DNA of 64,000 nt from an uncultured Verrucomicrobia subdivision 3 bacterium. Its GTDB lineage: Bacteria > Verrucomicrobiota > Verrucomicrobiia > Limisphaerales > UBA11358. Below, piece by piece: positions 4,078 to 43,743 of this stretch. The notes beneath the pieces are model-generated. The model saw only the letters and a program-made list of their open reading frames with translations, was not told where the DNA came from and did no database searches. Within the stretch, counting starts at the first letter, position 1. Each line of letters opens with the position of its first letter. The position numbers were made by a program, and so were the translations under genes. The stretch lies in assembly GCA_903872345.1 (NCBI GenBank), contig CAIQKM010000187.1, forward strand, positions 62,001 through 126,000, in the 5' to 3' direction.

Positions 4078-4096
4078 GGGGCAGTGGCAGGATGTG
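4078..4096 (+). repeat. 19-bp exact repeat, copy 1
   Basis: GGGGCAGTGGCAGGATGTG occurs here and again at 9805-9823, both times in an intergenic gap shortly upstream of a gene. The flanks are not clearly alike. Confidence 0.6.
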
Positions 4097-4125
4097 CCCA
4101 ATAATGGCGTGGTGCGGATTCCGGT

Positions 4126-9507: not shown

Positions 9508-9889
9508 TTCTTGGCCGGGCGGTTTGGTTATTAATTATGGCGATATTAGCAGGGCAAAGGCAATGCCGCAGGAGGTTATGCCACTTCCCGTTTGGAATGG
9601 CATCGGCGGTCTCGGAAGGAGCGCGGGCTGCAGCCCGCTGCAATGACCAAAACGGTCAAGCGCCAGCAAGTGCCAGGCCGCCTTCATTTTGGACGCGGAA
9701 GCGGCGTGAACGCCGCGCCCAGCGCGCTTGGCCGGCAAACGCAGGTTAAGCCAATGGTAACGCTGGCAATTCGCAAGTTGCTGCGGGTCACAGGTCCGCG
9801 CTTCGGGGCAGTGGCAGGATGTGACCTTTGCGACCGGCGCCACGACAGATGATTTGCCCAAATAACCGGTCTCCATTTATATTTAGGCC
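9508..9889. repeat. Intergenic repeat cluster between divergent genes
   Basis: This 382-bp divergent gap has no credible gene but several inverted repeats. There is a 16-bp perfect palindrome GCGGGCTGCAGCCCGC (9623-9638), TGACCAAAACGGTCA (about 9644-9658), and GCGGCGTGAACGCCGC (about 9700-9715). A near copy of the last, GCGGCGTGAACGTCGC, is at about 1846-1861. A copy of a 19-bp repeat is at 9805-9823 (first copy 4078-4096). The GGAGCGCGG...CTG...CAGCC pattern resembles the arms of the large inverted repeat at 59580-59724. Confidence 0.6.
9854..9883 (+). promoter_or_regulatory. Promoter with start of transcription at the GH2 start codon
   Basis: TTGCCC (9854-9859) and TATATT (9878-9883) are separated by 18 nt. 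The ATG at 9890 is six bases beyond the -10 box, so the mRNA would be leaderless; no SD is present. Confidence 0.45.
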
Positions 9890-14592: not shown

Positions 14593-14611
14593 TACCCCCC
14601 AAAGATGCGAC
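14593..14611 (+). promoter_or_regulatory. Shared regulatory motif, copy 1 (upstream of GH78 operon)
   Basis: TACCCCCCAAAGATGCGAC lies 109 nt before the GH78 ATG. Identical 18-nt cores occur at 34082-34099 (plus) and 30918-30935 (minus), all in gaps flanking or inside the two-component locus. Here ATGCGAC (14605-14611) is also repeated inverted as GTCGCAT (14623-14629). TTTGACCCG follows 73 nt after the motif start (14666-14674); the copy at 34082 has the same nonamer at an offset of 76. Inferred binding site for the regulator encoded at 30180-30872. Confidence 0.65.
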
Positions 14612-14720
14612 TCCGACCGGCGGTCGCATGCTTTAAAATCCTGTAATAAATTATCCATCAACGCATTTGACCCGACCGGCTGGGCCCTGCCGCCCTGCCG
14701 TCGTGGCTGTTTTTTTGATC

Positions 14721-17138
14721 ATGAAATTCTTCCTGCTCACCGGACTGGCGGGGCTGATAGCCCTGGCTGCGCATGCGGAAACGTTGCCGGTGCCGGCGGC
14801 GGACGACATTGGAGTGAAGTTGGATCAGTCGTTCATCTGGACCCGGGAGTCATCGCCCACCAATCAATCGTTGCAGGTTGGTTTCCGGCGCAGCGTGGTG
14901 CTGCCGGTGGCGCCGATTGCGGCGCGGCTGCATCTGTTCGCCTACACGCGCTACCAGTTGTTCGTGAATGGCGACTATGTGGGGCGCGGTCCCAACCGGT
15001 TTGAAAACCGCCGGCCGGAGTATGACACCTGGGACATTGCCGCCCGTCTGCACGCGGGCACGAATGTGCTGGCCGTGCTCGTGCATCGCGACTGGCCGGG
15101 AGAGAATGCCAAATCGACCGGGATGACCTTGAGCCGCATCCGGCGGCATGCGCCGGGTTTCACGGCGCGGTTGGAACTGCAGGCGGCCGGTCCGGCAACC
15201 GTCATTCCGACGGATGAATCCTGGCATGCGTTTGCGGAAACCGGATACGGTCAGCCGGTTCAGCACTCGTATTCTTCCATTCCCGATAATTTTAATGCGC
15301 CGTCCTCGCCGGGTGACTGGATGGCGGTGGATTTTGATGATTGCAACCTGCCGGTGGCTGAACGGTTGGACACGTCAAACCGGGAAGCCTGGCCGGTGCT
15401 CTCGCCGCGCACCATTCCGTTGCTGCGGGAAAAGGCGGTGGAGTTTTCAATTCAGCCGGCTATGGGCGAGAGTGCCTTGACCAATGGCAACGAATGGAAG
15501 CTGACCTGTTCGCGCATTGTCCAGGCGTATTGGGTGCTGGACATGGATGCGGCGGCGGGAACCAAACTGGTGATGACGCCGCAGTTGCCCGAGGGCAAAC
15601 ATGGATCGCCGAGCGTGTATATCTGCCGGGCCGGTCGCCAGCGTTGGCTGGGCGGCGATACCTTTGCCCTGAACGCGCTTTCCGTGCGGGTGGAATCCGG
15701 CCAGGCGGCGTTGTTGTCGGCGCGGTTGGTGGAAGTGAATTATCCGTTTGAGCGCGTGGGGAGTTTTACATGCAGTGATCCGATGTTAAACCGGGTATGG
15801 GAACTGACCGCCCGTTCGCTGGAGTTGTTGAGCGAGGACGCTTACACCGATTGCGCGGATCGGGAGCGTTCGGAGTGGATGGATTGCGATCCGCCGATGT
15901 ATGACGCTACGCGGGTGATGGAGGCCGGTCCGGGGACCAATGGCGTGAAGGTTTGGAGCGATCCCCGGCTGTTCGCCAACATGCTCCGCCGCGTCGTCTT
16001 GACGCAGGAGCCGGACGGCATGTTGCGGGCGCGCACCTGTTCGGAGCTGATTGATATTCACACGCGCATGGAAGATCGCGCCTGCGACTGGGTGGAGGGT
16101 TTGCGCAAATATTATGAGGCCACCGGCGACAAGGAATTGATCCGCGAACTGTGGCCGAATTGCGAACGGCTGCTGCAATGGTTCGCCAGTCGCCGGACGG
16201 GGGATGGCCTTGTTAAGGCGCGCGAATGGATTGCCTGGGATAATCCGATGAGCTATGCCACCTGCGAAGGGACGGGAAACAACGCCTTCATCCAACGCGC
16301 CTTCGCGGATGCCGCGTGGCTGGCCGGTGAGACCGGCAACGCCACCGCCGCCGTCCGCTGGCAGTCCGTGGCGAACCGGCTTCGGACCGATTTCAACCGG
16401 CTCCTGTGGGATGAAACGGATGGTTGCTATTACTCGGCCGCCGGCACGCCGGAAGTGCTTCCCGGGGACCGGATGTTCAAGAAATCCATCACGCTCGAAT
16501 CCGTGGACGGCCGGATCGAGCCGACGTTGCACGCCAATCTGTTTGCGCTGGATCGCGGTCTTGTGCCGCCGGACCGCCGCGACCGGGTGGTTGCCTGGAC
16601 GTTGCAACATGAAGCGCAGATTACGGCGGTGATGGCGAATTACTATTATTTCAAGATTCTCTTTGCGCTGGATCGGAGCGATGCGGATCAAACCGTGCTA
16701 GACCGGATCCGGCATGGCTGGCGGGGGATGATTGATTCGCCGTGGCAGACGAGCTGGGAATCCATGCGCGGCGGTTCCAAGGTGCATTGTTACGGCATCG
16801 TGCCCGGCTACATTCTGAGCGCCTATGTGCTCGGCGTGCGCCGGGACGCCCCCGTATGGAAACATGAACTCATCATTGAACCCCATCTGGCGGATCTCAC
16901 GCAGGCGTCCGGCGTGGTGGTTACGGAATTCGGTCCGGTGTTGGTGGCGTGGACGAAGGCGGGCGACAAGCTGAATTTCCAAGTTACGGTGCCGGCGGGG
17001 GGCAAAGCCCGGCTCGCCTTGCCGGCAAAAGCGGGCGTTAACGAAGTGACGCTCGATGGCCAACCGGTGAAGGGAACGGTTCAAGGGGCGCGGCTGGTGT
17101 TTGCTTTGGCCGCCGGTGTCCACACAGGAGAAGAATAA
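14721..17138 (+). CDS. Exported GH78-like alpha-L-rhamnosidase
   Basis: The ATG at 14721 gives a signal peptide (MKFFLLTGLAGLIALAAHA) and 805 residues; the longer frame from 14667 would bury it. The layout is N-terminal beta-sandwich domains with LHLFAYTRYQLFVNGDYVGRGPNR and YDTWDIAARLHAGTNVLAVLVHRDWPG, an (alpha/alpha)6 barrel from about 370, and a C-terminal beta-sandwich (about 700-800). YTDCADRERSEWMDCDPP corresponds to the DC..R.ERxGW substrate loop of GH78 (Bac_rhamnosid6H), and PWQTSWESMRGG to the late barrel motif. It removes terminal alpha-L-rhamnose. First gene of a five-gene operon; the GH30 start is 7 nt past its stop. Confidence 0.82.
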   Translation: MKFFLLTGLAGLIALAAHAETLPVPAADDIGVKLDQSFIWTRESSPTNQSLQVGFRRSVVLPVAPIAARLHLFAYTRYQLFVNGDYVGRGPNRFENRRPEYDTWDIAARLHAGTNVLAVLVHRDWPGENAKSTGMTLSRIRRHAPGFTARLELQAAGPATVIPTDESWHAFAETGYGQPVQHSYSSIPDNFNAPSSPGDWMAVDFDDCNLPVAERLDTSNREAWPVLSPRTIPLLREKAVEFSIQPAMGESALTNGNEWKLTCSRIVQAYWVLDMDAAAGTKLVMTPQLPEGKHGSPSVYICRAGRQRWLGGDTFALNALSVRVESGQAALLSARLVEVNYPFERVGSFTCSDPMLNRVWELTARSLELLSEDAYTDCADRERSEWMDCDPPMYDATRVMEAGPGTNGVKVWSDPRLFANMLRRVVLTQEPDGMLRARTCSELIDIHTRMEDRACDWVEGLRKYYEATGDKELIRELWPNCERLLQWFASRRTGDGLVKAREWIAWDNPMSYATCEGTGNNAFIQRAFADAAWLAGETGNATAAVRWQSVANRLRTDFNRLLWDETDGCYYSAAGTPEVLPGDRMFKKSITLESVDGRIEPTLHANLFALDRGLVPPDRRDRVVAWTLQHEAQITAVMANYYYFKILFALDRSDADQTVLDRIRHGWRGMIDSPWQTSWESMRGGSKVHCYGIVPGYILSAYVLGVRRDAPVWKHELIIEPHLADLTQASGVVVTEFGPVLVAWTKAGDKLNFQVTVPAGGKARLALPAKAGVNEVTLDGQPVKGTVQGARLVFALAAGVHTGEE

Positions 17139-17145
17139 TTTTTTA

Positions 17146-19440
17146 ATGAAATCAGCCACCCATGTCTCCAGACCAGTGTTATCGGCTTGCAAAACCGGGA
17201 TGGGGCGGGGCGTTCCGGGCTGGAATTGCCCGGGCGGATTGTCTGGATTTCTCTGGCTGGCGGTGGCGGTTGGTTTGCTTGCCAGCCTGAACAGTGTTGC
17301 GGCGCCCATCACCTGGGGCAAGGCCACGACGATTTCCAATGATACCGATGTGGTTACATCCGGCAGTCTGGCCTATGCCTACGACGATGCGTATTATCCG
17401 ACCGCTGTCAACGGCGTACCCTTCGGCGGCGGGAACAGTTACACGGCACTGGGCACCAATATAACGCTGAGCGGAAGTTATTCCTGGTCGAACACCGCTT
17501 TTGGCAGCAGCGCCGGCAGTCCGTGGGATGGCTTGAGTCTCTTTTATCAAACCCTGCTGCGCGGCGGTGTGTATGCGGCGAATAACGTGCCGATGAGTGT
17601 TACCCTGAGCAACCTGGTCGTTGGTCACGCCTATCTGGTGCAGGTTTGGGTGAATGACAACCGGCCCGGCGCAGGCAGCCGGACCGAGACGGTCAACAGC
17701 AGCGGGGGTAATGCGGTGTCGCTGGATTACAATAACACCGGCACGAACGGCGGCGTGGGCCAGTTCACCATTGGCACGTTCACGGCCGATGCCGTGAGCC
17801 AGGCATTTACGTTGAGCGGGGTGTTTCCGGCCGGCGGCAATTCTTCCCAGTTGAATGCCATCCAAGTGCGCGATCAGAGCGTGTTGCCGGGCACGAACAC
17901 CGCCGCGATCACGCTTAACCCGGGCACTTACCACCAGCAAATGTATGGCATCGGCGGCAACATTGCCGGCGGCGAGCAGCAGGCCATGTTTAATGCGGGT
18001 ACCAATCTGTTTGCCTCGGCGTTCTCGCCGGGCGGGCTGAATCTTAGCTTCATCCGGCTGGATAATCCGTATGGACAGACCGAACCGCCCTTTGCCGGGC
18101 TGACGAATATCAACAACACCATCATCACGCTGTTTCGCGCCATGCAACCGAGCGGCCGGATCATGATGACCTCGTGGTCGCCGCCGGGTTCGCTGAAGAA
18201 TACGGGCAGCGCGTTCAAAGGCACCCTCGCCACCAATGCGCAGGGGAAATTTGTGTACACCAATTTTGCGAACTGGTGGGTCAATTCGTTGAAGTATTAC
18301 CAGACCAATTCCTCGTTGCCGGATTATGTGTCCATTCAGAACGAACCGGACTGGTATCCGACCAGTGGAACCAACAATGCCTGGCAGGCGGGCTGCGAAC
18401 TGACCGCCTCGGAAGGCACGTATGCCGGTTATCCGCAGGCGTTCAACGCCACTTATACGGCTTTCCAATCAAATGGTCTCGGCGGCATCAAACTCATCGG
18501 GCCGGACACCGAAGGCATCAGCGGCGGCATCGTTCCCAACTACCTCAACAATCTGACCGCCAGCACGATCGGGGCGGTGGCGCATCATCTCTACGGCAAC
18601 AATGTGTCCACCAGCGGTGCGGGGCTTTTGAGCACGCTGGAGTCACAGTACACCTGGTGGACGATGCCGAAATTCATGACGGAATATGACGGGGATAATT
18701 GGGGCACCAACTATCCCGATTGGATGGGGCTGGCGGTGACCATGCACAATGTTTTTGCCTTGGAGGAGGCCAATGCCTATCTCGTGTGGAGCGTTTATTA
18801 CGGTTTGCTGTACAATTCCAACGGCTCGCCCGCCACGGACAACTATTACACGGTGGGCCATTACAGCAAATTTATTTGTCCCGGCGACTGGCACGTGGAC
18901 TCATCGAGCTCGGACACCAACGTGCTGGTTTCGCTTTATTACCATTCCACGGGAGCCGGGGTCAGCTATCGGTACATTGCGGTGATGATCAACAAGGCGG
19001 CGTATGCCACCACCGTGACCCTGAATACGTCCAACCTCTGGTCCACGGATGCGCTCCAGCGGTCGTGGCAGGTTTACAAGACGGCCAATGAGGGCTCCGC
19101 CAATTTCCGGCTGACCTTGGTGGACAGCGTGACCGGGACGAGTCTGACCAATCAAAACAAGAGCATTACGCTCGCCCCGTATTCCATCACCACGGCGGTG
19201 ATCAATTCGGGCATTTCGTCCAGTCCCGCCAGCATCAGCTATGCGGTGACCAATAGTCAACTCAGCCTCACTTGGCCGGGCGACCATTTGGGCTGGATTT
19301 TGCAGGCGCAGACCAATTCGCTGCGCGCCGGGCTGGCAACCAACTGGGTGGATGTGGCGAACAGCGCCTATTTGACGAAAGCCACCTTTCCAATCCTTTC
19401 CGCCAATCCGGCGGTGTTTTTCCGGTTGCGGCATCCTTAA
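17146..19440 (+). CDS. Exported GH30 glycoside hydrolase with N-terminal beta domain and C-terminal FRLRHP module
   Basis: From ATG 17146 the protein has 764 residues: an extended signal region, a beta-sandwich (about 48-245), a GH30 TIM barrel (about 255-600), its beta-sandwich partner, and a C-terminal module (about 695-764) reading LSLTWPGDHLGWILQAQT and ending FFRLRHP. The barrel holds the acid/base Glu400 (SIQNEPDWYP) and nucleophile Glu513 (FMTEYDGDN), with MMTSWSPPGSLKNTG upstream. GH30 includes endo-beta-1,6-galactanase, glucuronoxylanase and glucosylceramidase. In this operon beta-1,6-galactanase is the attractive guess, but the subfamily is not resolved. The last module is shared with the giant protein at 34227-40247. 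Confidence 0.83.
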   Translation: MKSATHVSRPVLSACKTGMGRGVPGWNCPGGLSGFLWLAVAVGLLASLNSVAAPITWGKATTISNDTDVVTSGSLAYAYDDAYYPTAVNGVPFGGGNSYTALGTNITLSGSYSWSNTAFGSSAGSPWDGLSLFYQTLLRGGVYAANNVPMSVTLSNLVVGHAYLVQVWVNDNRPGAGSRTETVNSSGGNAVSLDYNNTGTNGGVGQFTIGTFTADAVSQAFTLSGVFPAGGNSSQLNAIQVRDQSVLPGTNTAAITLNPGTYHQQMYGIGGNIAGGEQQAMFNAGTNLFASAFSPGGLNLSFIRLDNPYGQTEPPFAGLTNINNTIITLFRAMQPSGRIMMTSWSPPGSLKNTGSAFKGTLATNAQGKFVYTNFANWWVNSLKYYQTNSSLPDYVSIQNEPDWYPTSGTNNAWQAGCELTASEGTYAGYPQAFNATYTAFQSNGLGGIKLIGPDTEGISGGIVPNYLNNLTASTIGAVAHHLYGNNVSTSGAGLLSTLESQYTWWTMPKFMTEYDGDNWGTNYPDWMGLAVTMHNVFALEEANAYLVWSVYYGLLYNSNGSPATDNYYTVGHYSKFICPGDWHVDSSSSDTNVLVSLYYHSTGAGVSYRYIAVMINKAAYATTVTLNTSNLWSTDALQRSWQVYKTANEGSANFRLTLVDSVTGTSLTNQNKSITLAPYSITTAVINSGISSSPASISYAVTNSQLSLTWPGDHLGWILQAQTNSLRAGLATNWVDVANSAYLTKATFPILSANPAVFFRLRHP

Positions 19441-19482
19441 ATTATTCGGGGAATTGGTGACTGATTCAGCGGGACGAACGTT

Positions 19483-21552
19483 ATGAAATATCGGGTATTA
19501 GTTTTAATCGGGTTGTGGCTCGCCAGCGTGGCGATGGCCGGGGCGCGGGAGGTGCAGGTGCTGGCGGATCACTGGCGGTTTCAGCCGGGGGATATATCCG
19601 GCGCGGCGCAGCCGGGCTTGGATGACGCCCGGTGGACGGTGCTGTCCCTGCCGCATAATTGGGGCTGGGAGCAGGCCCAACTCGGCGATGAAAAATATCG
19701 GCGCGGGCCCGGCTGGTACCGGCGGACGCTGGACATAAAACCAGCGCCGGGCCGCCGTTATTTCATCCGATTCGGAGCCGCCGGTTCGGTGGCGGATGTT
19801 TATTTGAACGGCACCTGGCTGGGACAACATCGCGGGGCGTTTGGCGCCTTTTGTTTTGAACTGACGCCGAATCTGACCACCAACGGACCCGACCTGCTGG
19901 CCGTGCGGGTGAGCAATGCGCCGGAACCGGATCTTGCGCCGCTTGACGGCGGGTTTCCCGTGTATGGCGGACTATACCGCGAGGTGGAGCTGATTGAAAC
20001 GGATGACACCTGCCTCACGCTTACCGATCACGCGTCGCCGGGTGTGGCCTGGCAGCAGACCAGCGTCAGCTCCACCCAGGCGGTCATTGACGTGACGGCG
20101 CAAGTTTCCAACGGCCGGAAGGAGAATGTATGGCGAACCATGGTGGCGACGATTTTGACGCCGGATGGCACCCGGGTGGCCTCTACGCAACAGGCGATGC
20201 TGCTGGCGGCGGGCAATTGCGAACCGGTCACTCTGCGGTTGACCGTGCCGCAACCGCACCTGTGGAACGGTCGTCAGGATCCATGGCTGTACCGGGCCGT
20301 GGTGGAAGTACACACCAAAGACGGGGTGGTGGATGCGGTGGAACAACCGCTGGGGTTGCGCTGGTTCTCGGTGGATCCCGACAAAGGATTTTTTCTGAAC
20401 GGCAAACCCTACGCCTTGCATGGCGTGAACCGGCATCAGGATAGACCGGACAAAGGCTGGGCCATTTCCCGGGCGGATCAGGACGAGGATCTGGCCTTGA
20501 TACAGGAGTTGGGCGCCACCGTGGTGCGGTGCGCGCATTACCAGCACAGCGATTATTTTTACAGCCTCTGCGACCGCGCGGGCATTCTGGTTTGGGCGGA
20601 GCTGCCGCAGGTGAATTGCGTTTCCAACACGGCCGCCTTTGCCGAAACCTCGCGCAACCAATTGCTGGATCTGATCCGCCAGAATATCAACCATCCGGCC
20701 ATCTTTTGCTGGAGCCTCTTTAACGAACTGCGGCCGAACCGGCCGGATCCGCACCGCCTGTTGCAGGATTTAAATGTAGTGGCCAAGGGGGAAGATCCCA
20801 GTCGATTCACCGTCGGGGCCACCATGACCGATCAGTTGCCGCAAATGAACCGAATTCCCGATCAATTGGGCTGGAACCGCTATCCGGGGTGGTACGAGCC
20901 TGCGAAATACATGACCAATTTTACGCAGGACCTAAAAGGTTTGCGGAATTCAAGCCGGTCGGGCGGGTTTTGCATTAGCGAGTTTGGCGCCGGGGCAAAT
21001 GTGAACCAACATGAACAGAGCCCGCGCCAGCCCGCCTTTGCCGGTCAGTGGCATCCCGAGGAATGGCAGGGCATCGTGCATGAGGCGGCCTGGCGGCAGA
21101 TAAAACAACAACCTTATATTTGGGCCACGATGATCTGGAATCTGGCCGACTTTGTGAATCCCTTCCAGCACGAGGGCGGCGTGAACGGTCGCAACGACAA
21201 GGGGTTGGTGACCTTCGACCGGCAAATCCGGAAGGACGTGTTCTATTTCTATCAGGCCAACTGGAGCGGACAGCCGGTCTTGCATCTTACCAGCCAGCGC
21301 GACACGGTGCGGACGAATGCGGTGACCGATGTGAAGGTTTATTCCAACGCCCGCACGGTCAACTTGTACCTGAACGGCCACAGTCAGGGCGGGCGCACGA
21401 ATGATGACAACTCCGTCTTCGTCTGGCGGGCTTGCCCGTTGCAACCGGGAGACAATCAGGTGGAAGTCCGCGTGGAAATGGCCGGCCGCGAATGGCATGA
21501 TGGTTGCACCTGGAAACGGGTTGTGCCAACATTATCCAAAGCTTCCCAATGA
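19483..21552 (+). CDS. Exported GH2 beta-galactosidase-like enzyme
   Basis: This 689-residue protein has a signal peptide (MKYRVLVLIGLWLASVAMAGA) and GH2 sugar-binding, Ig-like and TIM-barrel domains. Hallmarks are HNWGWEQAQ, RYFIRFGAAGSVADVYLNGTWLGQHRGAFGAF, GVNRHQDRPDKGWAI, acid/base Glu415 (CWSLFNELRPN) and nucleophile Glu500 (CISEFGAGAN). A C-terminal Ig-like domain (about 590-680; TDVKVYSNARTVNLYLNG) matches DUF4982-type modules of Bacteroidetes-type beta-galactosidases. It probably trims beta-galactose from the polysaccharide attacked by its neighbours. Its last four bases (ATGA) are shared with the next gene, indicating coupled translation. Confidence 0.88.
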   Translation: MKYRVLVLIGLWLASVAMAGAREVQVLADHWRFQPGDISGAAQPGLDDARWTVLSLPHNWGWEQAQLGDEKYRRGPGWYRRTLDIKPAPGRRYFIRFGAAGSVADVYLNGTWLGQHRGAFGAFCFELTPNLTTNGPDLLAVRVSNAPEPDLAPLDGGFPVYGGLYREVELIETDDTCLTLTDHASPGVAWQQTSVSSTQAVIDVTAQVSNGRKENVWRTMVATILTPDGTRVASTQQAMLLAAGNCEPVTLRLTVPQPHLWNGRQDPWLYRAVVEVHTKDGVVDAVEQPLGLRWFSVDPDKGFFLNGKPYALHGVNRHQDRPDKGWAISRADQDEDLALIQELGATVVRCAHYQHSDYFYSLCDRAGILVWAELPQVNCVSNTAAFAETSRNQLLDLIRQNINHPAIFCWSLFNELRPNRPDPHRLLQDLNVVAKGEDPSRFTVGATMTDQLPQMNRIPDQLGWNRYPGWYEPAKYMTNFTQDLKGLRNSSRSGGFCISEFGAGANVNQHEQSPRQPAFAGQWHPEEWQGIVHEAAWRQIKQQPYIWATMIWNLADFVNPFQHEGGVNGRNDKGLVTFDRQIRKDVFYFYQANWSGQPVLHLTSQRDTVRTNAVTDVKVYSNARTVNLYLNGHSQGGRTNDDNSVFVWRACPLQPGDNQVEVRVEMAGREWHDGCTWKRVVPTLSKASQ

Positions 21553-24512
21553 AAGACTTTATAAAAAAATTCTGTGCGAAAATGGCCGGGGCTTTCCTGC
21601 TGTGTGCGGCATTTGTTTTATTCGTGGTGACCGCGCGGGCGGACTCAGCGGTTATCCTGCTTGAAGCCGAGCAGTTTTCCGATATCGGCGGCTGGGTGGT
21701 GGATCAGCAATTCATGGATCAAATGGGCTCGCCCTATCTGCTGGCCCACGGCCTGGGCGAACCGGTGCGGGATGCGGTCACGACGGCCGCCTTTCCGGCC
21801 AATACCGATTACCATATCTGGGTGCGCACCCGCGACTGGGTGGCGCCGTGGAAGGCGCCGGGCACGCCGGGAAAATTTCAACTGCTGCTCAATGGCGAGG
21901 CGTTGCCGGTTGCGTTTGGTACGGAAGGCGCGGACTGGCACTGGCAGGACGGCGGCATCCGAAAACTGGGCGGTGAAACCAAGGTTGCGCTCCATGACTT
22001 GACGGGTTTTGAGGGCCGGTGCGATGCCATCTTGTTTTGCGCCAATCTTGATTTTCATCCGCCCAATGAACTGGCGGCGCTGACGCAATTTCGTCGCCAG
22101 GCGCTCGGTCTGCCGGCGAATCCGGAGGATGGCGGCAGCTATGATTTGGTCGTGGTCGGCGGCGGCATTGCGGGCACGAGCGCAGCGGTCACGGCGGCGC
22201 GACTCGGCCTGAAAGTGGCACTGGTGCAGGATCGCCCGGTTCTGGGAGGCAACGGCAGTTCGGAAGTGCGGGTCTGGCCGGAGGGAAATATCCATCAAAA
22301 ACCCTATACGCATATCGGTGACGTGGTCGCGGAACTCGTGCCGGCCAAAGCGGGCGACGATGGCAACGCCAAATCTGCGGCCCAATATGCGGACGACCGC
22401 AAGCTGGCCATCGTCCGCGCGGAAACGAATATCACGCTGTACACCGAACACCGGGTCAACGAAGTTACGGCTGATCATGGCCGGGTGCGTTCGGTGGTGG
22501 CGCAAAATACCCGTACCGCCCGGCGGTTGCGGCTGTCGGCGCGCTGGTTTGCGGATTGCACGGGGGATGCGGACGTGGGGTATATGGCCGGCGCGGATTT
22601 TGAAATGTCGAGCGAAGAGCATCAGGGCGCGAGCAATTTGTGGAATGTGAAGGATGCCGCGGCGGCGAAGGAACTGTTGCAGTGTGCGTGCAAGGATACC
22701 AATGCGCTGGGCAGTTCGCTGGTGATCGGCACCGTGGCCGCGCCGTTTCCGCGCTGTCCGTGGGCGGTGGATCTCACCGACAAGCCATTCCCGGGCCGCA
22801 AAAATTACAAGGGACAGTATGTGCAAAAAGAGGCGCTGGCCAATCTCGGCGGCTGGTTCTGGGAAAGCGGGTTTAATCGCGATCCCATCAACGAGGTCGA
22901 ATGGATGCGCGACCAGAATCTCCGCGCCATGTATGGCGCTTGGGACGCCCTCAAAAACGTGGACAAGCTTTATCCCAACTACCGCCTCGGGTGGGCCGCT
23001 TACATCGCCGGCAAACGCGAGTCCCGCCGCCTGCTGGGTGACGTGATTCTGACCACGGATGATTTTCTGACGAACCGGTCCTTTGCCGACGGTTGTTTTC
23101 CGTGCTCCTGGCATATTGACGTGCACACCCCGGACAAGACATTTCAGCAGGGACACGAAGGCGAGGAATTTATTTCCCGGGCCACGGAAGGCGAGGGGTA
23201 CCATTATAAGGGACCTTATTGGGCGCCGTATCGTTGTCTTTACAGTCGCAATGTAACGAATCTTTTCATGGCCGGCCGCGACATCAGCGTGACGCACGAA
23301 GCGCTTGGCCCGGTGCGCGTGATGCGGACGTGCGGGATGATGGGCGAAGTCGTTGGCATGGCCGCCTCGCTGTGCGCGAAATACGACACCACCCCGCGCG
23401 GCGTGTATGCCGCGCATCTGGCGGAATTGATAACCTTGATGCGGCGCGGCGCGGGCAACGATGATTTGAACGGTCTCGATCTTGGCGCCCTGGTGCAGCC
23501 GGCGCCGCTCACGGCGAAGGTGACCGACCCCGGCTACCATGTCTGGTGCGGTGCGCCCACGCGGGCGGCGGATGGAAAATATCATCTCTATTATTCACGC
23601 TGGCCGGTGAACAATCCGGACGGCTTTTCGCCGGGCTGGGCCATTCACTCGGAGATCGCCCATGCCGTGGCGGATCATCCATTCGGCCCCTATCATTTCG
23701 CCGATGTGGCGCTGCCCGCCCGGGGTGTCAATCCCGTCACCGGCCGGAAGTACTGGGACGGGGACATGACGCACAATCCCAACATCGTCCAGCGGAATGG
23801 CAAGTATTTGCTCTACTACATTGGCAATTATGGCGACGGCAAATATCCGACGCACCGCAATCATGACCGCATCGGCGTCGCCATCGCGGACAAACCGGAA
23901 GGACCCTGGCAACGCTTTGACGCGCCGGTGATTGATGTCAGCACCAATGCCGCGGAGTTTGATTCGCTCTGCGTGGCCAACCCGGCGGCGGCGGTGCGGC
24001 CGGACGGCGGACTCATCGTAATCTATAAGGCCGTGCCGATCGTGCCGGGCAAGCTCATGGGCGGCGATGTGCGCTATGGCGTGGCTTATGCGGAGCAGCC
24101 CGAGGGGCCGTATATGAAACAACGCTGTCACATTTTTGAGGCCGACGGCGCGGCCGGCCATCAATGGATGCTGGCGGAAGATCCGTTCATCTGGTGCAGC
24201 AAGAAGCATGGCAATTATTACTATGCCGTGGCGCGGGATGTAGTGGGAACGTTCACGGGGGCGGCGGGCGGCATTGCCCTGTTTGCCTCTCCGGATGGTT
24301 ATCAATGGCAGGCGGCGTCCCACCCCAAAGTGTTGGGCAATCATTTTAAATGGGCGGATGGCACCCTGAGCAACGAACGGATTGAGCGCCCCGCGCTGTT
24401 GATCGAAGGCGATGAGTTGGTTGCCCTTTTCGGCGGAACCGATCAGCAGGTCAAGCCAGGGCGCGTGGCCTTCAACGTCCAGATTCCGCTCGCGCCGGTG
24501 GAAAATAATTGA
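21549..24512 (+). CDS. Fusion: exported FAD-dependent oxidoreductase plus GH43-like five-bladed propeller
   Basis: The ATG at 21549 overlaps the previous stop (ATGA), giving 987 residues with a signal peptide (MKDFIKKFCAKMAGAFLLCAAFVLF). Residues about 33-195 form a beta-rich carbohydrate-binding-like domain (ILLEAEQFSDIGGWVVDQQF). At about 200 a Rossmann motif, YDLVVVGGGIAGTSAAVTAARLGLKVALV, opens an FAD-oxidoreductase domain (PF12831 type) that runs to about 620 (RYSRNVTNLFMAGRDISVTHEALG). From about 655 to the end is a GH43/GH117-like propeller (MTHNPNIVQRNGKYLLYYIGNYGDG; GIALFASPDGYQWQ). I know of each domain separately near polysaccharide loci; the fusion suggests oxidation of a sugar followed by glycoside cleavage. 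The substrate is unknown. Confidence 0.75.
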   Translation: MKDFIKKFCAKMAGAFLLCAAFVLFVVTARADSAVILLEAEQFSDIGGWVVDQQFMDQMGSPYLLAHGLGEPVRDAVTTAAFPANTDYHIWVRTRDWVAPWKAPGTPGKFQLLLNGEALPVAFGTEGADWHWQDGGIRKLGGETKVALHDLTGFEGRCDAILFCANLDFHPPNELAALTQFRRQALGLPANPEDGGSYDLVVVGGGIAGTSAAVTAARLGLKVALVQDRPVLGGNGSSEVRVWPEGNIHQKPYTHIGDVVAELVPAKAGDDGNAKSAAQYADDRKLAIVRAETNITLYTEHRVNEVTADHGRVRSVVAQNTRTARRLRLSARWFADCTGDADVGYMAGADFEMSSEEHQGASNLWNVKDAAAAKELLQCACKDTNALGSSLVIGTVAAPFPRCPWAVDLTDKPFPGRKNYKGQYVQKEALANLGGWFWESGFNRDPINEVEWMRDQNLRAMYGAWDALKNVDKLYPNYRLGWAAYIAGKRESRRLLGDVILTTDDFLTNRSFADGCFPCSWHIDVHTPDKTFQQGHEGEEFISRATEGEGYHYKGPYWAPYRCLYSRNVTNLFMAGRDISVTHEALGPVRVMRTCGMMGEVVGMAASLCAKYDTTPRGVYAAHLAELITLMRRGAGNDDLNGLDLGALVQPAPLTAKVTDPGYHVWCGAPTRAADGKYHLYYSRWPVNNPDGFSPGWAIHSEIAHAVADHPFGPYHFADVALPARGVNPVTGRKYWDGDMTHNPNIVQRNGKYLLYYIGNYGDGKYPTHRNHDRIGVAIADKPEGPWQRFDAPVIDVSTNAAEFDSLCVANPAAAVRPDGGLIVIYKAVPIVPGKLMGGDVRYGVAYAEQPEGPYMKQRCHIFEADGAAGHQWMLAEDPFIWCSKKHGNYYYAVARDVVGTFTGAAGGIALFASPDGYQWQAASHPKVLGNHFKWADGTLSNERIERPALLIEGDELVALFGGTDQQVKPGRVAFNVQIPLAPVENN

Positions 24513-24530
24513 AATTTGTTTTTCTGACCC

Positions 24531-30872
<6,342 letters not shown>

Positions 30873-30917
30873 TTCAATCACTCTCGGGTTATAACGGGCA
30901 TTGGCGGCCATCCGCCA

Positions 30918-30935
30918 TCGCATCTTTGGGGGGTA
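30918..30935 (-). promoter_or_regulatory. Shared regulatory motif, copy 2 (between kinase and regulator genes)
   Basis: Read on the minus strand this is TACCCCCCAAAGATGCGA, identical over 18 nt to 14593-14610 and 34082-34099. It sits in the short gap between the kinase stop (30949) and the regulator start (30872), so the regulator and LacZ genes may have their own promoter. TTATAA, about 20 nt downstream of the motif, could be a -10 box. Confidence 0.6.
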
Positions 30936-30948
30936 GTCGGATCGCTTT

Positions 30949-33900
30949 TTATTTTCGGTTTGGCCGGGGCAGCGAAAAATAGAGTCGCACCGTGGTGCCA
31001 AAGCCCGGCCGGGATTCCAGTTCAAACCGGCCGCCAATCTCCGCCATCCGCTGCCGCATGTTTTTCAGACCCGTACCACCCGCCCGGACCGCGCCGGGAT
31101 CAAACCCCCGGCCGTTGTCCGCAATCATAATGCGGCATTCCATCTGGTCGCAAGCCAGTTCAATGCGCACCATCGAGGCCTGGGCGTATTTCACCGAATT
31201 GGTGAGCGCCTCCTTGTAGGCCAGAAACACATTGTGCCGCACTTCGGCATGGATGGAACCTGCCGGCAATTCCGAGGGGGCGATGAACTCATACTGGCGC
31301 GGCATTTTTTCAAACAGCTCGTCGGTGCGCCGGTTCATGTATTCCACCAGGCTGTGCAGGGAATCGTTTTCGGGGCGCACCGCCCAGACAATCGCTTCCA
31401 GCGACTGGGTCATTTCGCGCGCGGCGGTGGAAATTTTCCGGGTCTGTTCGCGCAATTCTTCCGGGCTGCCGGAATTGTCGCCGGCCATGTCGCCCAGCAA
31501 CGCCACTTCGGTGAGGCTCGCGCCCAGATCGTCGTGAATGTCCCGCGCAATGCGTGAACGCTCCCGTTCCAGCGCGCGCTCCCGTTCCAGCGCCGCCAGC
31601 CGCCGGCGCGTGCGGTTGCGCTCCAGTTGCCGCGCCGCCAAACCCGCGCTCCCCAGCAATCCCAGCGCCAGGCCAAGCTGGAACCACCGGGTTTCCCAAA
31701 TCTGCGGTATTACTTTTAAGGTGAGCGTGGCATCCTGCTTGTTCCACACTCCGTAATTGTCACAGACCTTCACCCGGAAGACGTAGTCGCCCGGTGGCAG
31801 CCGGCTGTATTGCGCGGACCGGCGCGCCCCGGCTTCGACCCAGTCCTTGTCCAAGCCTTCCAGCCGGTAACTGAAACGCAGCCGGTTTGGCGACAGGATG
31901 TTGGGGAAGGTGAAATAAAATTCCAGGCTCCGCACCCCCGACCGGATTTTAAAAGCCGTGCCGGCGGGCGGGGACATCAGTTGGCCATCCACGCGGATTT
32001 CTTCAATGACCGGCGGCCAGGTTTGCGGATGGCGGGGCAGGGTGGCCGGGTCAAACACCACCAGCGCCGAGCCGTCGGGAAACCATAATTTCCCGTCGGC
32101 CGACCGGGCGGCTGACGGCTGGCTGCCGCCCGAACAGACTTTATACGGCAAGCCGTCCGCCTGGGTCACGCGCCACGGAACCGGCGGCAGCCCGCCGGGT
32201 TGGTAATCCAGCAGCGCCTTGCGGGCGTAACCCACAATGCCGTTTTCGGAACCGAACCAAAGATTCCCCGCCGTGTCCGCCTGCATGGAAAAGAAATGGT
32301 TGCTCGGCAGACCGTCCTTTTCCCAAGTCCATTCCCGCAAGCCGTTTCCCTTCAGCCGGAACAGGCCGTCACCGTGCGTGGCCGCCCAGATCGAACCGTC
32401 CGCATCGGCCAGCAGACTGCGGGTGTTGCCGCCATTGCCCCACCGTTGCCGGAGGCTCGTGCCGCCGTCTTTCGGTGACCAGCGATTGAAGCGCCCGCCA
32501 TTTTGCACATAAACTCCCTGCCCCTGAACCGCCACCCAAAATCGGCCGGCCGGATCTTGGACAATGGCGTCAACCGGCCCCGCCGGCAGTCCGTTTTGGC
32601 GGGTGAATTTTTCCGACTTGCCGCCGCTGATGACGGTTATTCCGTTCATGGTGCCGGCCCACACGCTTCCCTGCGGGTCTTCATAAAGGGCAAAGACCGG
32701 CGTATTGCCGGCTGGCTTCTGCTCCAATTGAAACTGGCCGTTCTGAAAACGGAACAGCCCGGCGCTCGTTCCCGCCCAGAAATTGCTGCGACTGTCCTCA
32801 AACAGGGCGTTGACCTGTTGGCCGGCGAGCCCGGCGGATTCGCCATAACTCCGGGCGTTGGCATCTTCCCAGCGGAAGACCCCGGCCCCGTCCGTTCCGC
32901 CCCAGACACTCCCGTCATGACGCACGCAAACGGTGAGCAACACGTTCTGGCCGTTGGCCGGCGGCAGGGAATGGGTGTTCACCGGCCGCGGCACGGCCTG
33001 GCGCAGCCCCGAGGTGCGGGTGCCAATCCAGACGGCCGATCCCTCATCCTCGGTGAGACACAAGGTTTCCGCCTGGGAAAACGAAGGGTCGGCGAGCAGA
33101 TTTTGCCAGGTGCCGCCCGCCGGGCGAAAGAAGACGCCCGTACCCAGGGTGCCGCACCAGAGGTTGCCGTCGTGATCTTCCAATAGCGCTCCGGGGCGCG
33201 AACGCCAGGTGGTCTGCGGCCAGGGCAGCGGTTCGGGATCTGCCGTTACCGTGCCATCCTTAAAATGCAGAATCCGGGTGCCGGCGTTTTCGTCGTTTTG
33301 CGATGCCAGCCAAAGCCCGCCATCCCGGGCCGCCGCCAGCGCCCGGAGGGAATCCGGCAGCCCGGCAACGTCCTCCACCACCTGACATTTGCCCGCTGCC
33401 AGCCACCCCAGCCGGCCGGGCTCCGCCAAAAACCAGACCCGACCGTTGGTTGTGGCCAGCACTTGCGGAATATTCAACGAGGGCAGTCCATTGGTAAACG
33501 CTTCACACCGGCCATTCTTGACCCGGATCAGGCCGTCCTCATGCGTGCCCAGCCACAAATTTGTTTCCGTATCCACCGCCAGCGAGAGGATGCTGCTGCC
33601 GCGGGAGGCGCCGTCCAGATCCACGGTGGTGAAGGTGCCGTGTTCGTATTTGGACAGATTCCCGCTCTCCGTCCCGATCCACAACGTTCCCCGCTGATCG
33701 GTGGCCAGGCTGATGATCCGGTTGTCCATCAGCACCGGCGTATTGTCCCAATTGAAAACCACAAACCGAATGCCGTCAAACCGGGCCAGTCCGTGGCGGG
33801 TGCCCACCCAGACATAGCCATCCGGGGTGCACACCACCGCATTGATGCAGGTGCTCGGCAGCCCTTCATCCACGTCCCAATTGTGGACCAGAAAATCCTG

Positions 33901-34017
33901 GCCCGGCGGGCTGTCGGCCATGGCGGTCAGGGTCAGCAGCCACGCGGCGAGGAGTCCGGTCACGTACCGGCACCTGCGGCGCTGGGGGCGGGTAAGGTGT
34001 TGGTTCCGGGTGGTCAT
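30949..34017 (-). CDS. Sensor histidine kinase with two-component propeller, Y_Y_Y and HisKA_3 domains
   Basis: The ATG at 34017 yields 1022 residues with an uncleaved or cleaved N-terminal signal (RYVTGLLAAWLLTLTAMA). Two seven-bladed propellers of Reg_prop repeats fill about 40-680 (GYVWVGTRHGLARFDG, GTLWIGTESGNLSKYE, GNLWFGSENGIVGY). The Y_Y_Y domain follows (LRFSYRLEGLDKDWVEAGARRSAQYSRLPPGDYVFRVKVCDNYGVWN, about 700-760), then one transmembrane helix (about 775-795), a HisKA_3 box with His828 (RSRIARDIHDDLGASL) and an ATPase domain (DNGRGFDPG, GTGLKNMRQRMAEIGG). The periplasmic propellers presumably sense an oligosaccharide, as in Bacteroides hybrid sensors; here the regulator is a separate protein. 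It is divergent from the giant repeat protein gene. Confidence 0.92.
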   Translation of the reverse strand: MTTRNQHLTRPQRRRCRYVTGLLAAWLLTLTAMADSPPGQDFLVHNWDVDEGLPSTCINAVVCTPDGYVWVGTRHGLARFDGIRFVVFNWDNTPVLMDNRIISLATDQRGTLWIGTESGNLSKYEHGTFTTVDLDGASRGSSILSLAVDTETNLWLGTHEDGLIRVKNGRCEAFTNGLPSLNIPQVLATTNGRVWFLAEPGRLGWLAAGKCQVVEDVAGLPDSLRALAAARDGGLWLASQNDENAGTRILHFKDGTVTADPEPLPWPQTTWRSRPGALLEDHDGNLWCGTLGTGVFFRPAGGTWQNLLADPSFSQAETLCLTEDEGSAVWIGTRTSGLRQAVPRPVNTHSLPPANGQNVLLTVCVRHDGSVWGGTDGAGVFRWEDANARSYGESAGLAGQQVNALFEDSRSNFWAGTSAGLFRFQNGQFQLEQKPAGNTPVFALYEDPQGSVWAGTMNGITVISGGKSEKFTRQNGLPAGPVDAIVQDPAGRFWVAVQGQGVYVQNGGRFNRWSPKDGGTSLRQRWGNGGNTRSLLADADGSIWAATHGDGLFRLKGNGLREWTWEKDGLPSNHFFSMQADTAGNLWFGSENGIVGYARKALLDYQPGGLPPVPWRVTQADGLPYKVCSGGSQPSAARSADGKLWFPDGSALVVFDPATLPRHPQTWPPVIEEIRVDGQLMSPPAGTAFKIRSGVRSLEFYFTFPNILSPNRLRFSYRLEGLDKDWVEAGARRSAQYSRLPPGDYVFRVKVCDNYGVWNKQDATLTLKVIPQIWETRWFQLGLALGLLGSAGLAARQLERNRTRRRLAALERERALERERSRIARDIHDDLGASLTEVALLGDMAGDNSGSPEELREQTRKISTAAREMTQSLEAIVWAVRPENDSLHSLVEYMNRRTDELFEKMPRQYEFIAPSELPAGSIHAEVRHNVFLAYKEALTNSVKYAQASMVRIELACDQMECRIMIADNGRGFDPGAVRAGGTGLKNMRQRMAEIGGRFELESRPGFGTTVRLYFSLPRPNRK

Positions 34018-34081
34018 GGGCGGATTCTTATTCACCCTGCGGTTGAGTACAAGCCAAGATAACAGCCCGGCCGCCGGTTGA

Positions 34082-34100
34082 TACCCCCCAAAGATGCGAC
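34082..34100 (+). promoter_or_regulatory. Shared regulatory motif, copy 3 (divergent kinase/giant-protein gap)
   Basis: TACCCCCCAAAGATGCGAC lies 126 nt before the giant-protein ATG and 64 nt upstream of the kinase ATG (which reads the other way). It is identical over 19 nt to 14593-14611. TTTGACCCG follows at 34158-34166, an offset of 76 nt from the motif start compared with 73 nt at the GH78 operon. Confidence 0.65.
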
Positions 34101-34226
34101 TGTCAGTCTTGTCCCGTTTGTTAAGGTGCCTGCATGACCCGCTCCCAAAATATCGTTTTTGACCCGCTGTCATCCGCCATTGCCGTTCCCTAATCCAACG
34201 TTCCCCCCATCAGCCAACCGCTAAAA

Positions 34227-37200
34227 ATGAAAACTCAAAACTACCAACGCACCTCCGCTTCAACCTGGGCGGTTCCCCTTCTGGCCGGGTTGTCGCTCGG
34301 CCTCGCCACCGTCGCTCCGGCGGCGAACTTCGCCTGGTCCACCGCTCCCGCCAACGGCAACTTCGGCGGCAACAACTGGACCAGCGGCGCCGTTCCCGGC
34401 GCGGCCGCGACCACCCCGGTGACCAGCAGCAGTCTGTTTTTCGGCACGTCCAGCCTGACGACGCTGACGAACAACGACAGCGCCTTCACTTTTGCGGGCA
34501 TCACCTTCAATTCCGGGGCCAACGCCTTCACCATTAACAGCAATGCGTTCACCCTCACCGGCGGTATCACCAACAGCAGCACGAGCCTGCAAACCATCAA
34601 TGCACCCATTGCCTTGAGCGGGGTCAACTCGGTGGCCGGCGGCGGCAATGTCACGCTGGGCGGCATTGTCAGCGGCACCGGCACCCTGGCCATGACCGGC
34701 GCGGGCGTACTGTCTTTGACCGGGGCCAATACCTATAGCGGCGCCACCACGGTCAGCTCCGGCGAACTGGATATTTCCAACTGGGGTGCTTCCGGCCTGG
34801 CCGGCATCACCGTTGGGAACACCGCCACCACGGCCATCATGGGCGTCAAGGGCGGGACCCTCGCACTGGGAGCCAATACCTTTGTCATTGGCAGCGGCAC
34901 CACTTCTGCCTTTGTCGGCACGGTGAATCAAACCGCCGGCACGGTTTCCTTTACCGGCGGCACCGCGATGCTGATGGGCAACGGCACCAACACCGTGGCC
35001 AATTACAATCTCAGCGGGGGCACCCTCAGCAGCGGTACCTACGCCGCCAACAGTCGCGGCGTGATCCTGGCGGTGAACAACGGTTGTTCCGCCACGTTTA
35101 ACCTGAGTGGCTCCGGGGTGTTATCCCTGCCGTTTGCCACCTTGGAAGTGGGTCGTTCGGACAGCGCGGCCACCGGCGGCACGGCGGTGTTTTCCCAGAC
35201 AGGCGGTTCGGCCACGCTCGGCTATTTGTATGTCGGTGGCTACAGTGGGGCGGGTGGCACCACGGCGACTTTGAGTCTTACCGGCGGCACTTTTGCAGCC
35301 ACGAATTTCCCGGTTCTGGTCGGTGCGGCCAATAGCACCGCCACGCTGACGCTGGGCAGTACCGCACAAGTTACACTCCCCGCCTTCCCCGCACCCGCCG
35401 GCACGGCCAATCTGACCCTCGACTTTACGACCGGTTACCTGGCTCCCGTCGCTTCGAGCATTAATTACCTCAGTGGTTTGACCCATGCCTATCTGACAGC
35501 CAACGGGGCGAACATCAATGTGCCCGCCGGCATTAACATCACGGTCGGCCAGACCTTCCAGAACGCCACATCTCAAACCGGTGTCTTGACCAAGTCGGGT
35601 GCAGGTATTCTGAAACTTACCGGCAACAGCACCTACACCGGGGCGACGACCGTCACCGCCGGCGAATTGGTGGGCGTGACGGGCGGTTCCGTGGCCAGCA
35701 GCGCCGTTTCGCTGACACCCGCCTCGGGCGCGGCCGCGTTGGGCGTCTATTATGCCGGCACCAATGGCCAATGGACCGTCTCCAGTCTGGCATTTAACAC
35801 CGGCGGCACCGGCACGGGTTTGGAATTTGCCTTTGGCACCACCCCCAGCACCACGGTCGCGCCGCTGGCCATTACCGGCGCTTTGACTTTTAACTCCACT
35901 CCCACCGTGACGGTTGATCCGGCCAATCTTGTGTCCGGCGCCTCCTATCCGTTGCTGGTCGTTGGCGGCACGGTTCCCGCCACCGGCGTACCCACCACCG
36001 CCAACATCGGTCGCGGACTGACCGGCACCCTGGCTTGGGGCACCGGTGCACCGTATTCGACCAAGACCCTGGTCTTGACCGTGGCCGGCACCGCCACCGC
36101 GCCCCTGAATTGGAACAGTTCCACTGCCGGCAACTGGGATGCCAATGACTCCACGAATCTGGTCTGGAAAGACAGTTCCAGTCCCACGCCTCTGGCGGCC
36201 TATTATCAAGACAGCGGGTTGATCGGCGATCAAGTGTTCTTTAGCGACAATAATATTGCCGCCAATACCACGGTGACGCTGATCGGCACCGTTAATCCGG
36301 CCAGCGTGACCTTTAACACCACCAATTATAGTTATACGGTTTCCGGTTCCGGTGGCATTGCCGGTCCGGTGGCGTTGGCCAAGAACGGCGCCGGCGCCTT
36401 GACCTTGTCCACGGCGAATACTTACAGTGGTGGGACCGCCATTAACCAAGGCACCGTGAACACCGGCGTCGCGGGCGGCCTCGGTATTGCCCCGGTCAGC
36501 ATTGCCAGCGGCGCGGCCCTGAACCTGACCACCGGCAATACCACCTACGCGGGTCCCAACGCCGGCATCAGCGGCGCCGGCACGGTCAACGTCACCACCG
36601 GTTCCGGCAGCTCGTCGGTACCGTTGAACGGTGTCAATTCCAGCTTTACCGGCGCAGTGAATGTCGGCACCAATTCCACCGGCGGCAAAGTCCAGTTGCA
36701 GGGCCCCCTGGCCAGCACCGCCACGGTCAATGTCCTCTCCAATACCACCGTTTACGTGGGCGCCGCCGTTACCAATCCGGCCAGCATTATTCTGTATGGC
36801 GGCACGCCCGGCGAATCTTTGGGCCAGCTCCGCGTTGAAGGCGGGGCCGTCTGGTCCGGCCCCGTGACTTTGGCCGGACCCATTTTGGGTGCCACCAACG
36901 GTACGGTCGGCGCGAACAGCGGCACCGGCACCATCACCGGCAACATCGGCCAGACCGGCGGCGCGCAAACCCTCATCAAAGTGGGTGGCGGCGGGGTGGT
37001 GCTCGCCGGGGCGAACACCTACACGGGCGGCACGGTGGTCAACGTCGGCACCCTGACCTTGCTGGGCAACCAGACCGGGGTCACGGGCGGCATCTTTGTC
37101 GGCACCAATACTTCCTCCGCCGCTTTGAATATTGGCAGCGGCACCCAGACAGCCTCCACCGCCATCGCGGTCAGCGCCACCGGCACCAACCTCTTGGGCA

Positions 37201-43658: not shown

Positions 43659-43743
43659 TGGTGCGCATAAGAGGACTTGAACCTCTACGCCTTGCGGCAC
43701 TACCACCTCAAAGTAGCGTGTCTGCCAATTCCACCATATGCGC
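43659..43743 (-). tRNA. tRNA-Leu (GAG)
   Basis: Reverse-complement reading gives a class II tRNA of 85 nt. The acceptor stem is GCGCATA/TATGCGC with discriminator A and an encoded CCA (43659-43661). The anticodon stem CTACT/GGTAG encloses loop TTGAGGT, so the anticodon is GAG and decodes CUC/CUU. The long variable arm (TGCCGCAAGGCG) is typical of tRNA-Leu, and the T arm is AGAGG-TTCAAGT-CCTCT. Confidence 0.95.

Follow-up and report, generated by a model that had tools for sequence, protein, structure and literature searches.

What is the function of an 18-nucleotide sequence that occurs, unchanged, in three separate gaps of a single locus? The question is raised by a stretch of 64,000 nucleotides (the window) from an uncultured Verrucomicrobia subdivision 3 bacterium, in which genes for glycoside hydrolases, a sensor kinase, a response regulator and a giant protein with PATR repeats lie together (Table 1). 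According to the original prediction, the sequence is the binding site of this regulator, and links five hydrolases, LacZ, the sensor and the giant protein in one response.

Table 1. Positions of genes, candidate operators and deduced -10 hexamers in the window.
Feature	Position	Strand	Remarks
Operator copy 1 (candidate)	14593..14611	+	18-mer 14593-14610 plus 19th base C; arms 14594-14599 and 14606-14611
-10 hexamer of copy 1 (deduced)	14634..14639	+	TAAAAT
Operon after copy 1	14667..26936	+	In order: GH78, 779-aa protein, GH2, FAD oxidoreductase, GH95
LacZ-type beta-galactosidase (GH2)	26926..30147	-	Behind regulator gene
NarL/FixJ-type response regulator	30180..30872	-	Response_reg, GerE
-10 hexamer of copy 2 (deduced)	30888..30893	-	TATAAC
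Operator copy 2 (candidate)	30917..30935	-	18-mer 30918-30935 plus 19th base T; kinase-regulator gap
Sensor kinase	30949..34017	-	Reg_prop, Y_Y_Y, HisKA_3, HATPase_c
Operator copy 3 (candidate)	34082..34100	+	18-mer 34082-34099 plus 19th base; kinase/PATR divergent gap
-10 hexamer of copy 3 (deduced)	34122..34127	+	TAAGGT
2006-aa protein with PATR repeats	34227..40247	+	Presumed surface or secreted

Copies of the motif and their place in predicted promoters

The three identical copies that had been claimed were recovered: shuffles gave 0.03 copies on average, and three copies in none of 100. No further copy is present in the window at up to three mismatches, and all three are intergenic, lying before the GH78 operon (copy 1), between the kinase and regulator genes (copy 2) and in the divergent gap of the kinase and PATR genes (copy 3). 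The nineteenth base said to be common to copies 1 and 3 is C in both; it is T in copy 2. A downstream word, TTTGACCCG, had also been pointed out and indeed begins 73 and 76 nt past the starts of copies 1 and 3, but it is a chance word: it occurs three times in the window against 1.19 expected (at least three in 12 of 100 shuffles), once within the kinase ORF, and is present at none of nine homologous motif sites checked. With a window count near chance and no such homologous site, it was rejected as a second element. A hairpin (ATGCGAC...GTCGCAT) was spotted by eye at copy 1, and none of this type was seen at copies 2 and 3; the sole match from an Rfam scan of the window is a tRNA (43662-43743).

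The motif lies at a fixed offset from a sigma70-like -10 hexamer. Counting hexamers of at least 2 bits at 21-24 nt from the motif, 18 of 23 sites possess one and five do not, compared to 5/23 on the opposite side of the motif. The 23 sites comprise the three in the window, all 11 exact core matches in genome G036, two from L147, one from the bacterium's own genome (C78), three of five from G043 (two within ORFs were dropped) and three of six from G038; C55 and C104 were dropped. The offset peaks 23 nt after the 18-mer in a test of 16 sites, which takes in one degenerate G036 site (L016 13584), and none of 20,000 shifts was as good; the same figure (0/20,000) was obtained for 12 less redundant sites, and 174/20,000 for the three window sites alone. 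When the best-scoring hexamer within 20-26 nt is used and the start is placed about 7 nt beyond it, the site centre falls at -43.5 in 12 of 23 cases and within one base of it in 20. The geometry is thus of class II type, with a predicted site in the -35 region at a fixed distance from the -10.

The 230-aa regulator contains Response_reg (7e-24) and, at its C-terminus, a LuxR-type HTH (GerE, 4.8e-17); its best PDB match is NarL (1a04, E 6.5e-28). All 25 receivers in the alignment, that of the window among them, retain the MD of the VVLMD stretch, with the phospho-acceptor aspartate. A HisKA_3 kinase encoded alongside is typical for NarL/FixJ response regulators, and the kinase gene adjoining this one carries such a domain (3.4e-11).

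An operator should be conserved together with its regulator, occupy a promoter position and depend on the recognition helix. The first two properties are found for the window motif itself; the third is clearest for sister class A and extends to the window branch by way of its monophyly in the regulator tree. The core of the original prediction is thereby supported: judged from sequence, the motif is very probably the operator of the regulator, which would activate from about -43.5. Both binding by the regulator and activation instead of repression are inferred. Where a site lies does not by itself distinguish activation from repression, and the same regulator could be a repressor, its dimer lying over the -35 region and keeping polymerase out until it is released by the signal. 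A precedent is NarL, which represses from some of its sites in the excerpted account of PMC4549865. Set against it is one strict distance to the -10, the place of a class II activator, at 23 sites in five genomes, a distance that the sister classes also keep, and we regard repression as improbable. Repressor sites are usually more variable in position.

Conservation with the regulator

The motif adjoins same-branch regulators in four other genomes (G043, G038, G036 and L147; regulator identity 61-92%), in three of which it occupies the kinase-regulator gap. In G045 (59% identity), this gap holds the same arms with a different spacer. In the regulator tree the window's branch is a clade of five rows (98/94). 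G036 has 11 exact core sites, eight on the contig of the regulator. A search of the genome and its relatives, proposed along with the original prediction, came out in its favor: places in the bacterium's own genome are few, and the G036 core sites precede GH28, GH32, GDSL-esterase and PATR genes.

Among 49 family genomes, three hold near-exact copies, each together with the same regulator branch; G038, although it has the regulator, was missed because its sites are at least two mismatches off. Of 384 class genomes sampled, three have the form with the C-run. One isolated copy, in G234, lacks a related regulator in the 19 kb covered there. The bacterium's own 6.5 Mb genome holds the motif at only seven places at up to three mismatches, those outside the window being C104 (one mismatch), C55 and C159 (two) and C81 (three); C78 carries a more diverged intergenic copy. 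The C55 copy sits within a PATR gene, and those of C104 and C81 are ambiguous.

The site at C159, ACCGCACAAAGATGCGAT, is that of a paralogous regulator and differs from window copy 2 at just two of 18 bases, so that cross-talk between the two regulators may occur. With 32 related regulators in this genome, the main binder could be a family paralog such as C159, with an operator of the ACCGCA-N6-TGCGGT type, or several paralogs could share the sites. The chances of this are slim, since the C-run form goes with the window branch in the family and class genomes counted above, none being shown in class A genomes, and C-run sites cluster round the gene of the window-branch regulator.

Candidate operators of the sister regulators

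Of the 32 regulators in the bacterium's own genome, seven could be given a repeat-supported operator (window, L114, L120, L134, L135, L136 and L140) and 25 could not. The class A dyad is present at 24 of 28 loci with the helix DTVRSYVR (four lack it), as against 11 of 87 other loci; Fisher's p for this tie (1.5e-12) is overstated, because the loci are related. The helix was chosen after viewing nine of the 28 loci; among the remaining 19, 15 have the site. Class A sites keep the -10 distance of the window motif: the geometry, determined first on 41 sites selected by eye and afterwards on all 53 (50 oriented rows), peaks at 22 nt (0/10,000). A hand-picked list of other dyads (21 rows) gives the same peak (22 nt, 0/10,000); where class-A-like sites adjoin other helices (13 sites, 11 rows), the peak is at 89 nt (296/10,000). 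Operator class follows the recognition helix, most clearly for class A, and clade; the branches of the regulator family appear to use different operator words.

Sister regulators have symmetric versions of the dyad, with clear inverted half-sites; in the window the arms pair at only two of six positions. On the basis of alignment with the sister operators and the common -10 distance, the motif is best read as the asymmetric form of an 18-bp dyad with 6-bp arms and a 6-bp spacer. At two mismatches the arm scan for the window branch was unspecific, finding 5/5 own loci but also 15/110 others (spacers of 7 and 8 likewise gave 5/5 own loci), and an arms-only search of the own genome returned 10 matches to 6 for controls, so that arms alone fail to predict sites genome-wide. 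Across 112 loci, a spacer of 6 was found at 25 and a spacer of 4 at 23 (nested palindromes, hairpins), with 3-16 for others; mononucleotide shuffles within gaps (five rounds) gave 0.8-2.4 loci. By itself the scan is not decisive. Genome-wide, CCGCA-N6-TGCGG is only mildly raised, with 682 occurrences across 49 genomes and 488 of the reversed pattern.

The fixed distance to the -10 would also suit a -35-like promoter element for an alternative sigma factor. That the motif is such an element is very unlikely, given that it spans 18-19 bases with a gap of 22 nt to the hexamer, that the hexamer is sigma70-like and that the sister elements vary with the helix of the response regulator. Least credible of all is chance or a mobile or REP-type repeat, for although repeated intergenic 18-mers occur at 34 of the 112 loci, often of REP-like or hairpin type, the low copy number, promoter position and conservation of the motif in other genomes in the main refute it.

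The predicted operator would work as NarL sites do in class II promoters. The 7-2-7 operators of NarL in E. coli, a regulator of the same family, have arms about one dyad, as is proposed for the window motif (excerpts of PMC4549865 and PMC9314961). Of three promoters tested, one has a NarL site working 32 bp ahead of its -10 (PMC9314961, in part); here dyad centre and hexamer are about 31.5 bp apart. An engineered NarL site, TACCCCTAAAGGGGTA, in the excerpt of PMC4549865, resembles the left part of the window motif; in the NarL frame, class B sites (L172) hold TACCCAG-N2-CTGGGTA. In contrast to NarL sites, conservation here extends over 18 bp with arms of 6 bp, the TACCCC of the window is set 2 bp farther out from the middle of the dyad, asymmetry and polarity are consistent features of the putative window operator, and the genes predicted to be controlled encode CAZymes and PATR proteins. 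ComA of Bacillus subtilis, from the same DNA-binding superfamily, also departs from the plain inverted repeat and uses a direct repeat as well (PMC4797271, in part); here one inverted-repeat arm seems to have diverged.

The predicted regulon and its meaning

Computation established the sites and the fact that they are conserved along with the regulator, as well as the geometry and polarity of the promoters and the link between operator class and regulator branch. From these a mechanism may be proposed. The kinase, with its Reg_prop propeller as the outer part, would sense a glycan fragment and phosphorylate the regulator. A regulator dimer would then bind the 18-bp ACCCCC-CAAAGA-TGCGA(C/T), centred at about -43.5 where a -35 element would otherwise lie, and recruit RNA polymerase to the sigma70-type -10. 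Switched on would be the regulator-LacZ unit, by positive feedback, the GH78-GH95 operon, whose first start is likely at 14721, and the PATR protein.

This regulon departs from the original prediction in several respects. The operon does not encode five hydrolases, as its 779-aa product has no Pfam match and the FAD oxidoreductase has a GH43 match below the cutoff. LacZ may belong because its gene follows that of the regulator on the same strand, the one ground for including it. Because the site is polar, copy 3 is directed toward the PATR gene and lends the kinase no support as a regulon member. Starting at 34173, the longest kinase ORF would include copy 3, but the signal-peptide-like N-terminus makes 34017 the likely start; in G038 the orthologous kinase has an in-frame stop (L051 3156) after the motif (3133-3150) and an ORF start at 3183.

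The signal is probably a pectin- or rhamnogalacturonan-like glycan, a guess based on GH78, GH95 and GH2 in the window and GH28, GH43 and GDSL esterase in G036. Hybrid two-component systems (HTCS) join kinase and regulator in a single polypeptide and carry an AraC-type DNA-binding domain; here, by contrast, kinase and regulator are separate ORFs and the regulator is of NarL/FixJ type. The resemblance is in the Reg_prop and YYY sensor by glycan-degrading genes, as in Bacteroides polysaccharide utilization loci, where there is one sensor per substrate (excerpt of PMC3243724).

Verrucomicrobiota are noted for the breakdown of complex polysaccharides. Their polysaccharide degradation is the subject of PMC3335022; on operators of Reg_prop kinase/NarL-type pairs in this phylum, nothing was found in the open-access literature searched. 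We lean, if only slightly, toward the view that Verrucomicrobiota possess a large Reg_prop kinase/NarL-type family in which each branch has a private 18-bp 6-6-6 operator, always at one promoter position and readable from the recognition helix, and in which the window branch broke symmetry to give a polar site whose one arm has the C-run. If true, nature would here have an evolving code of protein-DNA recognition by which polysaccharides are allotted to regulons, class A to starch-type genes and the window branch to pectin-type genes. Knowledge of an operator and its promoter geometry allows regulons to be read in uncultured genomes, co-regulated enzymes provide guesses at substrates, and many natural paralogs can serve to test how recognition helix and DNA arm are related.

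The motif and its promoter geometry

The original prediction placed three copies of TACCCCCCAAAGATGCGA in the window and none elsewhere in it. All three are exact and lie where predicted, and no further copy is present in the window even when up to three mismatches are allowed. Shuffled windows contained a mean of 0.03 copies, and three copies occurred in 0 of 100. Across the organism's own genome (6.54 Mb, 204 contigs) seven places match at up to three mismatches, compared to three for the reversed pattern, the control for genome-wide motif counts.

Features of the locus, sister-regulator sites and other repeats (window coordinates unless a locus is named)
Feature	Location	Description
Motif copy 1	14593-14610 (+)	
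Motif copy 2	30918-30935 (-)	
Motif copy 3	34082-34099 (+)	
Operon behind copy 1		GH78; protein without Pfam match; GH2; FAD oxidoreductase (GH43 match slightly under its cutoff); GH95
779-aa protein	17101-19440	
Regulator	30180-30872	Response_reg, GerE
LacZ gene	Next after regulator gene	
Sensor kinase		Reg_prop, Y_Y_Y, HisKA_3, HATPase_c
2006-aa protein	34227-40247 (+)	PATR repeats
tRNA gene	43662-43743 (-)	
Intergenic 19-mer outside the regulon	3967-3985, 43509-43527	Inverted orientation
Intergenic 25-mer outside the regulon	4075-4099, 9802-9826	Direct orientation
Sister site	L212	ACCGCA-TCTTTG-TGCGGT
Sister site	L114, L172	ATACCC-N6-GGGTAT
Sister site	L140	CCCCCT-CAATTG-AGGGGG
Sister site	L190, L192, L196, L204	ATCCCC-N6-GGGGAT
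Sister site	L215	ATGGGG-TGAACA-CCCCAT
Own repeated intergenic word, other own-genome kinase/regulator locus	L135: 5863, 10011, 17364	Adjoins Reg_prop kinase
As above	L140: 10277, 14623	Adjoins glycosyl-hydrolase/lectin-domain protein
As above	L136: 6803, 18514	Adjoins PATR protein

The 779-aa and PATR proteins share a C-terminal stretch ending YRLRHP/FRLRHP, with matches also among neighbour genes in relatives; it is perhaps a secretion or anchoring tail.

At offsets 1-94 downstream of each site, the sequence was scored against a matrix for the sigma70 -10 element. A single sharp peak falls 23 nt after the 18-mer; 0 of 20,000 random shifts were as good, either for 16 sites or for 12 sites with fewer orthologs (174 of 20,000 for the three window sites alone). 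Of 23 sites, 18 have a hexamer of at least 2 bits at 21-24 nt; on the other side only 5 do, which makes the site polar. The own-genome site on contig C78, upstream of a malectin-domain protein gene, has a weak -10 hexamer. In the stretch presumably transcribed first after copy 3 (34135-34165), TGACCCG occurs at offsets 35 and 60, and it is found again at offset 38 of one site in genome G038 (L051 near 3133), perhaps by chance.

Loci of sister regulators carry symmetric sites of two 6-bp arms and a 6-bp spacer (see table). In the same frame, the site of an own-genome paralog on contig C159, ACCGCACAAAGATGCGAT, differs from copy 2, ACCCCCCAAAGATGCGAT, at two bases. That frame, which ends at the 19th base, lies 22 nt from the -10; the -10 peak is also at 22 nt for all 53 class A sites (ACCGCA-N6-TGCGGT type) and for a hand-picked list of other dyads (0/10,000 in each case). 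This frame would account for the 19th base noted in the original prediction, as the final base of the right arm. If the best hexamer at 20-26 nt is numbered -12 to -7, the centre of the proposed 18-bp dyad, which occupies positions 2-19, falls at -43.5 for 12 of the 23 sites and at most one base from this for 20.

On the best reading, a dimer of the NarL-like regulator would bind here and activate from a class II position, the sensed signal acting, presumably, through separate kinase and regulator. The regulator may, alternatively, repress from the same place. PMC4549865 states that NarL favours inverted heptamers with a two-base gap, gives an engineered site as TACCCCTAAAGGGGTA, and places sites of this type at -40 to -49 (napF) and -38 to -47 (yeaR); in PMC9314961 one NarL site was enough when it stood 65, 55 or 32 bp ahead of the -10. 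The sensor of the Bacteroides HTCS (PMC3243724) resembles the window's kinase; in the window, however, kinase and regulator are separate proteins.

Conservation with the regulator

At up to one mismatch TAYCCCCCAAARATGCGA occurs in three of 49 family genomes (the window's own, G000, with G036 and G043). The closest regulators are those of G043 (89-92% identity, two programs), G038 (84-88%) and G036 (66%), followed by those of L147 (61%; a record from Lake Pavin) and G045 (58-59%). A regulator 51% identical to the window's is also encoded in L185, whose public record bears the title Klebsiella pneumoniae MAG; that title looks mistaken.

Both G043 and G038 carry TACCCCCCAAAC(A/G)TG(C/T)GA or near variants upstream of genes of PATR or N_methyl type; one such site stands in the gap preceding the kinase, and the kinase-regulator gap has a site as well. 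L147 has CCCCCCCCAAACATGCGA within that gap and directly behind the regulator. G045 has CCCCCC-TGTTTA-TGCGAT in the gap, with no convincing second copy in the 39 kb fetched around the locus. In G036 only 3 nt separate kinase and regulator, and the sites precede surrounding units; the genes downstream encode GH28, PATR, GDSL esterase, GH43, GH32-PATR, N_methyl and Ig-domain proteins.

Among five whole genomes, the exact core CCCCCAAANRTGYSA occurs 11 times in G036 (eight on the regulator's contig, three on C5), six in G000, six in G038 (three beside the regulator, three on other contigs), five in G043 (all on the regulator's contig, two within ORFs) and not at all in G045. At one mismatch, matches approximate reversed controls in all save G036 (24 vs 4). 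A 17-nt version, sought in 384 sampled class genomes, was found only in G000 (3), G036 (2) and G234 (1). G234 belongs to another family of the same order; its single copy, TACCCCCCAAAAGTGCGA (contig C46; L231 9285), has no related regulator or kinase within the 19 kb fetched around it.

Operator class and recognition helix

Scanning 115 regulator loci for class A sites (at most two of 12 arm positions mismatched, spacer 6) gave matches in 24 of 28 loci with helix DTVRSYVR, compared to 11 of 87 others; at spacers 3, 4, 5, 7, 8 and 9 the same 28 loci gave 3, 4, 7, 4, 4 and 9. Class B sites (ATACCC-N6-GGGTAT type) occur in both loci with their own helix and in 10 of 113 others. For the window branch, whose helix pattern DTVR[EK][HY][AV]R was picked after inspecting those rows, all five loci match their own operator class, but so do 15 of 110 others, and all five match at spacers 7 and 8 too. 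The arm scan is unspecific here because C-runs are common; the evidence for this branch comes from the conservation of the long motif rather than from the scan.

In a tree of 52 regulators, in which several outer rows are long branches of unsure placement, the window branch is a single clade of five (98/94) beside class B (99/92 for both together), and class A with its AGCGCA variant forms another (98/98). Six proteins encoded after class A sites were examined: starch-type domains (CBM20, CBM48, alpha-amylase) are present in four, in one case only at scores below the curated cutoffs, and the other two match nothing in Pfam. The domains point to starch as the probable substrate of the class A regulon.

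Searches of an open-access library turned up no publication that deals with operators of this kind in Verrucomicrobiota. The window regulator is an ordinary NarL/FixJ member; new here are the putative asymmetric operator and the operator classes tied to the recognition helix.
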